From Candidatus Nitrosopumilus sp. (GTDB lineage: Archaea > Thermoproteota > Nitrososphaeria > Nitrososphaerales > Nitrososphaeraceae), in contig JACDCB010000076.1 of NCBI GenBank assembly GCA_013694585.1, positions 1 through 45,583 on the forward strand: DNA of 45,583 nt. The letters are read 5' to 3'. The position numbers and the translations under genes were made by a program. The notes beneath the pieces are model-generated. The model saw nothing but the letters and a program-made list of their open reading frames with translations, was not told where the DNA came from and did not search any database. Below, piece after piece: positions 18,261-20,975 of the stretch. The first letter of the stretch is position 1. Each line of letters begins with the position of its first letter.

Positions 18261-19370
18261 TTAGTTGGTATTTATCTTTAGAACTACAGCATTTATTGCT
18301 TCCTCTACTGTGTCAAATAGGCGTGTATTACTTCCATTAAGCAATTCCTTTGCCTTTTCGGATTGCGCTCCAGAGATTCTAGCGTATACCGGCACTGTCA
18401 ATACATTATTCATATATGCCTCAAGAATACCTAGTGCTACAAGGTCTGTCCGCACAATTCCTCCATATAAATTCACAAGGATTGCTTTTATTTTCGGAAT
18501 CCTACTTATGACTTTAAGAGCTTCGTAAATAGTTTCGCTTGTGGCTCGTCCCCCAAAATCAAGGAAAGCTCCGGCTTTTCCATTTGCATCAGTAACCATA
18601 TCTAAAGTGGACATTACCAAACCAGCACCATTGCCTATAATTGCAATGTCACCTTCCAATTCAACAAAAGAGAATCCATTTTTAGCGGCTTGTTTTTCCA
18701 AATCGCTTAAATATAGGTATTTTTGCAAATCCTCGTGCCTAAAGAGAGCGTTATCATCTATGATCACTTTAGCGTCCAAGGCAAGTAAAGAGTCATCAGA
18801 GATGATAGCAAGAGGATTTATTTCGGCAAGTTCGGCCTCCTTCTCTACAACTACTTTAAAGAGATTCAGCAATAGATTGACAAAACTTTCTTTGGATTCA
18901 TCTGGGATATTCAAATTCGATGCGATAGCATTCGCTAACTCACCCGATATGCCGTCAATAGAGATATCTTGGATTATTTTATTATCAGTTTGTTCAATAT
19001 CAATCCCCCCTTCTGACGAAGCAATTATCGAGAAGCAGCGCTTGCTCCTGTTTAAGAAGATAGACAAATAGATTTCTTTAACAATATCAACCATTTTCTC
19101 TAAGAGGATACCCCTTGGCAATTCGCCTTTAACTTCTTTCTTCAATAATTCATCAAACTTTGTTTCTAATTCAGAAGTATCTTTGCATTTTTGAATTGCT
19201 CCTGCTTTGCCTCGGCCACCAACAGTTAGTTGAGATTTCAAGACAAAGGGAAAACCTAGTTTCTGAGCTCCGATTCTGGCATCTTCCACATTTTCAGCTA
19301 GAATAGACTCTGGTATTTTTATACCAAATTGATTAAATAGCTCTTTTCCTTGATATTCGAGAAGTCGCAT
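18261..19370 (-). CDS. sucC: Succinyl-CoA synthetase beta subunit
   Basis: The 369-residue protein combines an N-terminal ATP-grasp domain (MRLLEYQGKELFNQFGI, QLTVGGRGKAGA) with a C-terminal ligase domain (FLDFGGRAT, NLYGGIVR). It binds the nucleotide and succinate. It is slightly shorter than bacterial SucC (about 388), which is common in archaea. It is followed by sucD after 15 bp, the standard sucCD operon. The left arm of the inverted repeat described below lies 79 bp upstream of its start. Confidence 0.95.
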   Translation of the reverse strand: MRLLEYQGKELFNQFGIKIPESILAENVEDARIGAQKLGFPFVLKSQLTVGGRGKAGAIQKCKDTSELETKFDELLKKEVKGELPRGILLEKMVDIVKEIYLSIFLNRSKRCFSIIASSEGGIDIEQTDNKIIQDISIDGISGELANAIASNLNIPDESKESFVNLLLNLFKVVVEKEAELAEINPLAIISDDSLLALDAKVIIDDNALFRHEDLQKYLYLSDLEKQAAKNGFSFVELEGDIAIIGNGAGLVMSTLDMVTDANGKAGAFLDFGGRATSETIYEALKVISRIPKIKAILVNLYGGIVRTDLVALGILEAYMNNVLTVPVYARISGAQSEKAKELLNGSNTRLFDTVEEAINAVVLKINTN

Positions 19371-19448
19371 CTTTGTAAAGTTTTGAAAATACTCTTTATA
19401 AACAATCCTTTTTTATTTTTATTTAAGGATTACTGAAATAGGTTCTGT

Positions 19449-19497
19449 AAACTCCGTCTTATGAAGATATAAATTAAAGGAGTAATAGTCGTCAGAT
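19449..19497 (+). repeat. Left arm of a long inverted repeat
   Basis: AACTCCGTCTTATGAAGATA and the following AATTAAAGG...GTCGTCAGAT recur in reverse orientation at 20411-20459. Only a 2-nt gap, one further indel and about two mismatches separate the arms over nearly 50 bp. The arms are about 0.9 kb apart, too far for a terminator hairpin. They look like terminal inverted repeats of a small mobile element. Confidence 0.8.
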
Positions 19498-19563
19498 GAT
19501 TTTAAAAATTAAATATCTATTTCTTGGCTTGTGGATTCATTTCTCCTCACTCTTTATCTATAG

Positions 19564-20035
19564 GAAATAAAACATCAATGCGATTTTGTCATTAACTCTT
19601 ATAGTGATTTGGTCCCTAGTTTGAGTTCTTGTGATAGTTACAGAGTTTGGATTTCCATTCAATCATTACTAATAGCGTCTGGGAATATTTCAAAGATATT
19701 ATGCCCTGATGAGAAATACCCACAAAGGGAGTTACGAAAAAGATTATCAATCAAAGGAAATGAATCGTTTTCTTCACGAGCCGCAAGAAATTACTTAGAA
19801 CATGTTGATAAAAGACTTTAAAAATAATTTCAAGATTCTACGCATCATAACATAGCTTATGTTCTTATTGGTTATAGAGAAGCTCTGATTTGGGGAAATA
19901 TGGATTATGAGATTTTTTAATTCTAGTAATTTTACTTTTAGATTCTGAGGTCACATATATGAGATAAATCCATTATATGAAGAAATAAAGATTTTATTGG
20001 TCAAGGTTGCTATCGGTTGCTCAAATCGAGGTTGA
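19564..20035 (+). pseudogene. Decayed gene with in-frame stops and a frameshift
   Basis: An open stretch reads SLSSCDSYRVWISIQSLLIA, GNISKILCP, LRKRLSI and RAARNYLEHVDKRL, then stops at TAA and a second TAA. The same frame then continues FQDSTHHNIAYVLIG. After another stop the match resumes in a different frame as SNFTF...GHIYEINPLYEEIK, with a TGA where a Trp would fit. From memory, this order of motifs (LR..L, RN..EH.D.RL, a G-x-x-YEI-PL helix) resembles an uncharacterised family found whole in bacteria and archaea; the family has no known function. The ORF track reports only the 70-residue first piece (19609-19821). Confidence 0.55.
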
Positions 20036-20118
20036 ATAACTATGATTTCGGCTTTGAACTATCCTATTTTTATTCGATGATTAACATTGATAAAAAGTTA
20101 ATTAGTGATTTTGATAGT

Positions 20119-20325
20119 TTAAAACCTACTTTTTCTTTTAAATAATCCATATGTGTTTTGAGATTTTACAGGAGGATATCTTTCATTTTTGCCTAATGGG
20201 ATAACTTTTTCTTCTTTAGTTGGTGGCCTTTCATTTTCAGTGAATGTTAGAGTATAGTCTGCTTTAGTAGGTGCTTTTTCCCCAGTCTTGAAGGTAACTA
20301 TCTTAGGGGAACTGACTTTTTTCAT
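20119..20325 (-). CDS. Small protein with three PPTK-type repeats (YjzC-like motif)
   Basis: The 68-residue protein starts at ATG 20325, which has a strong ribosome-binding sequence GGTGGT just upstream. The track's TTG at 20337 would lie before that site. The body is three units of about 16 residues: FKTGEKAPTKADYTL, FTENERPPTKEEKVI and LGKNERYPPVKSQNTY. The first is close to the FKPGEKAP motif of bacterial YjzC-family small proteins. It is basic, with no membrane segment. The function is unknown. It lies inside the inverted-repeat segment. Confidence 0.65.
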   Translation of the reverse strand: MKKVSSPKIVTFKTGEKAPTKADYTLTFTENERPPTKEEKVIPLGKNERYPPVKSQNTYGLFKRKSRF

Positions 20326-20410
20326 ATATACCACCAACGAGACATGATATAAAAGATTAACCTTTATATTAGTGTATCAAACGGGTTTCCTAAAAACTTT
20401 TATGTTACGT

Positions 20411-20461
20411 ATCTGACGACTTTTTACACCTTTAATTTATATCTTCATAAGACGGAGAGTT
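20411..20461 (-). repeat. Right arm of the long inverted repeat
   Basis: ATCTGACGACTTTTTACACC and the following TTTAATTTATATCTTCATAAGACGGA form the reverse complement of the arm at 19449-19497. The outer part of this arm encodes the last residues of the membrane-anchored protein gene at 20445. Confidence 0.8.
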
Positions 20462-20975
20462 GACGGAGCCCTGAATTATTCCCTAAATTTTTCAAGTCCT
20501 GACTCACATTGAGCGAGTTTGATGTAATATTCTTGACATTCAGCAAATACAAAGAGTAATCTCTTAGATTATTCATTAGTTCCACGTAGTTTGGCATCAA
20601 AGATTGATTTGGTTGTCCGTTTAGTAAGGTCTGCATTAATTCATTATTTTGAATGATCGAGACATTAATGACATCGGTAATGTATGTCTCATTGACACTG
20701 ACACTATTTGCTTTAGCATCATTAATTTGATCTTGAACCTCGTTTTGCAATAACAAAAATTGACTATTGACTGATGTTAACGTATCATTTGGATCCAAGA
20801 ATGAAATGGTCATGTTACTCATTCCGCTATTTTGTATATTTTCGGATGGTAGAAACCATACAATGAAGCTAGCACCTATAATACCTATTACTAGAATACC
20901 GGTTAAGATGATTCCTTTTTTATTAATTTTTTTGATATTATTAGTATTATCATTTCCTTTCTTGTCTGTAGTCAT
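20445..20975 (-). CDS. Membrane-anchored protein of unknown function, C-terminus inside the inverted repeat
   Basis: The 176-residue protein has a Lys/Asn-rich cytoplasmic start, one membrane segment (GIILTGILVIGIIGASFIVWFL, about 25-46) and a helical, Asn/Gln-rich outer domain with many N-x-S/T sites. The final residues RQLSVL and the stop come from the right arm of the inverted repeat. The original C-terminus may therefore have been replaced when that sequence arrived. I do not recognise the family. It is probably transcribed alone. Confidence 0.6.
   Translation of the reverse strand: MTTDKKGNDNTNNIKKINKKGIILTGILVIGIIGASFIVWFLPSENIQNSGMSNMTISFLDPNDTLTSVNSQFLLLQNEVQDQINDAKANSVSVNETYITDVINVSIIQNNELMQTLLNGQPNQSLMPNYVELMNNLRDYSLYLLNVKNITSNSLNVSQDLKNLGNNSGLRQLSVL

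Follow-up and report, generated by a model that had tools for sequence, protein, structure and literature searches.

A probable non-autonomous, cargo-bearing transposon with an inverted interior beside sucC in Candidatus Nitrosocosmicus

RESULTS AND DISCUSSION

An insertion between sucC and a membrane protein gene

The window, meaning the whole 45,583-nucleotide stretch that was analysed, belongs to an assembly (G000) that is 90% complete and comprises 280 contigs. It was compared with a sister species (G010) and with congeners of Candidatus Nitrosocosmicus (G004, G006, G012, G013 and G014). The region of interest is flanked on the left by sucC, encoding the beta subunit of succinyl-CoA ligase (positions 18261 to 19370, minus strand), orthologues of which were present in 15 of 15 genus genomes, and on the right by an open reading frame for a membrane protein (20445 to 20975, minus strand). 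A preliminary description made from the sequence reported near-identical inverted arms about 0.9 kb apart at this locus, and these were confirmed. The segments at 19452 to 19485 and 20424 to 20457 were 97% complementary over 34 nt, and the pairing extended into 19484 to 19497 and 20411 to 20424. They include an exact 29-nt core (19452 to 19480, plus strand) that is identical to the reverse complement of 20429 to 20457 and occurs twice in the window, where dinucleotide shuffles gave an expectation of 0.00 even with three mismatches allowed. A search of the whole G000 genome with the full arm gave strong matches at these two sites only.

The preliminary description had proposed a search for an empty site in relatives, and one was found in four congeners (G012, G006, G013 and G014) whose SucC proteins were 93 to 96% identical to that of the window. 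Their alignments to the window ran up to 19440 and resumed at 20471, overlapping by exactly 8 bp, and each empty site carried a single copy of the octamer, which was CTGAAATA in G012, G006 and G013 and CTGAATTA in G014. In the window this octamer is duplicated around the insertion, as CTGAAATA at 19433 to 19440 and, with one mismatch, as CTGAATTA at 20471 to 20478. The empty site and the target duplication set the borders of the element at 19441 and 20470, giving a length of 1,030 bp, and the inverted arms are the terminal inverted repeats (TIRs) of this insertion. The left TIR (GGTTCTGTAAACTCCGTCTTATGAAG...GGAGTAATAGTCGTCAGATGA) occupies 19441 to 19498 on the plus strand, as delimited by TIR alignment and an in-sample profile match, and lacks 2 bp of the family consensus. 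The right TIR (GGCTCCGTCAACTCTCCGTCTTATGAAG...GGTGTAAAAAGTCGTCAGATAC) occupies 20410 to 20470 on the minus strand. The repeats are somewhat longer than the preliminary description stated, and the element is slightly larger than noted. That the arms arose by chance, or belong to the region upstream of sucC as a native palindrome with a structural or regulatory role, is almost certainly wrong: none were expected in shuffled sequence, the segment had no match to an RNA family in Rfam, and the arms are absent from the uninterrupted site of four close relatives, which already refutes this explanation.

The flanks were also as first described. The left arm is just upstream of sucC, the start of which (19370) is 70 bp from the left end of the element, and the right arm provides the C terminus and stop codon of the membrane protein gene. 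Comparison of C termini with those of empty-site orthologues revealed that the last codons and stop of this gene were replaced by the insertion, the protein ending in ...KNLGNNSGLRQLSVL in the window compared with, for example, ...KNLGNISVVLK in the orthologues.

The cargo gene and the remainder of the interior

The interior was initially reported to hold a decayed gene and a small protein, with no transposase, and the lack of a transposase was borne out. The DNA at 19499 to 20118, about 0.6 kb, is non-coding or decayed; it contained short frames only and no recognisable protein, and was 90.7% identical (559/616) in G010. No match to a transposase remnant was found in the left half of the element, and no transposase was found anywhere within 19441 to 20470. 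The cargo gene is a 72-aa open reading frame at 20119 to 20337 on the minus strand which matched PF14168 with an E value of 1.6e-4 and a score of 22.4 bits; since the curated gathering cut-off is 25 bits, it is referred to as YjzC-like only. The region upstream of it, up to the right TIR (20338 to 20409, minus strand), was identical in G010 at 65 of 72 positions. The YjzC-like frame itself was 95.9% identical between the two genomes, with a dN/dS of 0.25 that derives from only eight changes.

The YjzC-like gene was present in 4 of 70 family genomes and adjoined this arm sequence each time. Correspondingly, the cargo region was found at two loci only: the present one (G000 and G010) and another site in G013 and G014, where the copies have diverged to about 74% DNA identity, arm included. 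Between G013 and G014 the dN/dS of the gene was 1.4, giving no sign of constraint, and a search for a second TIR beside these copies found none. No YjzC-like gene was found in viral contigs.

The interior is inverted in the sister species

G010, the only other genome to share the insertion, carries it at the same site with the interior in the opposite orientation, a feature additional to those first described. The flanks aligned in one orientation at 95 to 96% identity and the interior in the other at 91.5%. The outermost arm bases were bound to position in both genomes, with GGTTCTRTAA on the sucC side and GGCTCCRTCAACT on the membrane-gene side, while the sequences inside the arms were exchanged between G000 and G010. 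In addition, both arms of G000 contained AAA and both arms of G010 contained AAAA, and this sharing within each genome is a mark of recombination or conversion between arms. The interior was thus flipped in one lineage after insertion, and the fixed outer bases, combined with the exchanged inner arm sequences, point to crossing over between the arms rather than to a second insertion. Misassembly is an unlikely cause, since ordinary reads are longer than the exact repeats, which measure 29 nt in G000 and 47 nt in G010. The locus offers a clear archaeal example of inversion through the arms of a transposon.

Two independent insertions in opposite orientations at the same target would also account for the arrangement, and different elements do occupy the same octamer, CTAAATCT, at another locus of these two species (G000:C163 and G010:C10). 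Such a history would, however, have swapped the outermost end bases, which instead stay by position in both genomes. Unless the ends were later converted, this refutes a double insertion, which we regard as highly improbable.

We also considered whether the segment is a dedicated, phase-variable switch whose flipping alters expression of sucC, the YjzC-like gene or the C terminus of the membrane protein. The two orientations in two species and the homogenisation of arms within each genome are what such a switch would produce, and there is a precedent in the inversion of the small, repeat-bounded Correia elements of Neisseria (reviewed in PMC10969869). However, the segment contains no recombinase frame and its immediate neighbours are sucC and the membrane protein gene, the outer ~12 bp of the arms are fixed, and general recombination would account for a crossover at any point of the arm. 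Moreover, the element does not include the conserved stretch immediately before sucC, which is unchanged between the two orientations, the membrane gene ends in nearly the same codons in either, and the data amount to just two snapshots at ~95% flank identity, so that the flip may be a single event. A dedicated switch is therefore very unlikely. It is also quite unlikely that a cassette carried by the transposase family considered below still inverts via its long TIRs to give a reversible orientation switch for cargo beside sucC.

Related TIRs on other elements of the genus

Related ends were searched for with the arm, with a consensus end and with a 21-sequence profile, the matches of which are partly in-sample. 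Alignment of the TIRs revealed a common layout of GGCTCTGTCAACTCTCCGTCNGAT, about 20 variable bases and GTGTAAAAAGTCGTCAGATGA. Each TIR consists of an outer end, GGCTCTGTCAACT, and two CGTCNGAT boxes about 35 bp apart which presumably serve as transposase-binding sites. Related TIRs of about 60 bp were found throughout the genus; most of them bound further elements that have small cargo genes and lack a transposase.

The suggested search for dispersed copies with such arms was therefore positive, both elsewhere in the G000 genome and across the genus. A second G000 element (C163:24867-26229) has TIRs that are 98% complementary over 56 nt, a perfect duplication of CTAAATCT and small open reading frames without a transposase, and its site is uninterrupted in G012, G013 and G014. 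Smaller examples were a 193-bp element with related ends in G004, duplicating CTTTCAAA, and a 738-bp element in another genus, duplicating GATTAAAT. The TIR type is not unique to the window element, and the family includes transposase-bearing members.

Several further features of these elements were observed. The octamer CTAAATCT is targeted by different elements in the two sister species (G000:C163:24867-26229 and G010:C10:66369-68483). It forms the left half of the palindrome CTAAATCTAGATTTAG, and element ends are found there in G006 as well. The site is either a hot spot or the result of the replaced interior of one insertion. The G000:C163 element also has an approximately 89%-identical relative on C1 of G010, and the two are rearranged internally, one half being inverted relative to the other (L121 2430-3735 versus L115 2959-4133). 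A Cys-rich protein of about 88 aa (CVHCGNN...CHKCNRDN), which matched no Pfam family, is encoded as cargo by elements in G000 and G010 (L121 2607-2870 and L115 3807-4070) and, by translated similarity, of a G014 element (L262).

A candidate mobiliser

Elements of 2.5 to 3.5 kb were identified in the family that encode a transposase of approximately 375 to 390 aa, in which SWIM and zinc-ribbon motifs are followed by an IS240/IS6-type DDE domain. These SWIM-DDE elements have further open reading frames, unlike the single-gene IS of roughly 0.8 to 0.9 kb, and several are flanked by perfect 8-bp duplications (CTGAATTG, CAATTTCA, TTAAATTT, CGCAGGGG, GAGATTCG and AAATATTA). Their TIR boxes vary by subgroup. 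The CGTCNGAT type was found on elements of 2.7 to 3.3 kb with a transposase of ~385 aa, two of them intact in G004, namely C29:41228-44545 (391-aa transposase frame, duplication CTGAATTG) and C175:31071-33825 (385-aa transposase), and on decayed copies, at G004:C60 (CCATTTAG) and in the sister species at G010:C10:66369-68483 (duplication CTAAATCT). The decayed G010 transposase shared 47% identity with the G004 protein across residues 180 to 375. At G004:C175:29192-33825, two elements of this TIR type were observed almost back to back with 8 bp between them, one containing an intact SWIM-DDE transposase and the other only a remnant of it.

A held-out TIR profile was built from eight G004 ends alone, all from transposase-bearing elements. 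It matched the right arm of the window element (20470 to 20411) with an E value of 9e-7 and an exact end at 20470. The match to the eroded left arm was weak (E value of 0.67) and nonetheless began at 19441. SWIM-DDE elements of the CGTCNGAT type have the same two-box TIRs as the window element, suggesting that a transposase of this group was its mover.

Other IS families with 8-bp duplications could have moved the element instead, for instance IS1595 or the short IS6-type ISs with transposases of ~207 aa. The latter are numerous in the genus, and one, from another genus of the family (L202), has ends starting with GGCTCTGTTAATTTAA. Against this, the held-out TIR match is to SWIM-DDE ends, and we consider a different IS family unlikely. 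As a source of the transposase, IS1595 was rejected because PF12762 is seldom found in the genus and not at all in G000 or G010. The short ISs were likewise rejected, as the similarity of L202 to the window TIR ends soon after GGCTCTGT and it has no CGTCNGAT boxes; L202 was the only short IS6-type element with readable ends, the TIR not being callable at most short transposase loci.

No SWIM-DDE transposase was found in the G000 assembly, where the sole match was a SWIM stretch within a 623-aa frame, and neither G000 nor G010 yielded an intact transposase of the CGTCNGAT TIR group. In the vicinity of the one intact transposase of G010, at C6, no CGTCNGAT ends were detected. As the search of the host assembly gave no transposase of this group, the window element is probably stranded and immobile today.

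The catalytic domain of the SWIM-DDE proteins matched PF13610 with an E value of 1.1e-17, and the SWIM match was sub-threshold (E value of 0.01). Scores against the NCBIfam model transpos_IS6 were 109.5, 105.7 and 115.9 bits, all under the cut-off of 125. Given these scores, and the published case for removing the archaeal ISs from the IS6/IS26 family (PMC6807381), membership of the transposase in IS6 is doubtful. Solved structures gave only weak zinc-finger matches to the transposase profile. Transposase relatives occur widely among archaeal assemblies, including those of Nitrososphaeria, Methanoperedens, Bathyarchaeia, Thermoplasmata and Asgard.

Interpretation and comparison with known elements

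The segment from 19441 to 20470 is most probably a non-autonomous, cargo-bearing DNA transposon of the mobile-insertion-cassette type, moved in trans by the SWIM-DDE group, a reading to which we assign a probability of about 0.88. The small non-autonomous mobile element with a YjzC-like gene envisaged in the preliminary description is supported by the empty sites, the target duplication and the related elements. Insertion with duplication of the target was shown by the comparisons above, and as its mechanism we propose that a DDE transposase acting in trans placed the element between the membrane protein gene and sucC, duplicating the 8 bp of CTGAAATA. The enzyme would most likely have come from the archaeal group with an N-terminal SWIM/zinc ribbon and an IS6-type (IS240) catalytic domain. 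On this reading, the element entered the ancestor shared by G000 and G010, after which arm-to-arm recombination would have flipped the interior in one lineage and would also keep the arms alike.

Functionally, the element is a mobile insertion cassette, as described for MIC231 of Bacillus cereus and mic-qnrD of Proteeae (PMC3913671). Like these, it has IS-type inverted repeats around a cargo gene, no transposase, a target duplication and presumed mobilisation in trans. Its site is empty in relatives, and candidate autonomous partners with matching ends are intact in G004 and decayed in G010. It differs in being archaeal, in having the ends of SWIM-DDE (IS6-type) elements rather than of IS231, in its TIRs of about 60 bp with two repeated boxes, and in its YjzC-like cargo, and its mobilisation in trans is proposed from sequence. 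Miniature inverted-repeat elements (MITEs), including the Correia elements, are also non-autonomous with TIRs and a target duplication, and inversion has been seen in Correia elements; the window element, in contrast, is 1,030 bp long with a coding gene and is not a short high-copy repeat, although the 193-bp element of G004 (L132) has related ends. With the archaeal IS6 elements of ISfinder (PMC6807381 and PMC7986276), the partner transposase shares the IS240/IS6-type DDE catalytic domain, and the ends have in common that they begin with GG and have G at position 7, whereas the partner has an N-terminal SWIM and zinc ribbon and multi-gene elements of 2.5 to 3.5 kb.

SWIM-type transposases were not mentioned in the published IS6 analysis, and neither these nor non-autonomous elements were mentioned in a published thaumarchaeal survey. 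The literature searched, which covered few subscription journals, did not describe SWIM-type elements or cassettes of theirs for these archaea, and this is not proof of novelty. The results indicate that Nitrosocosmicus, a genus of soil ammonia-oxidising archaea, is host to a family of cargo-bearing, transposase-less transposons, and point to the enzyme likely to move them. Apart from this family, the IS6-type DDE profile matched the single-contig genome G005 about 47 times, with many matches in near-identical frames of ~207 aa that represent a recent expansion of a short IS.
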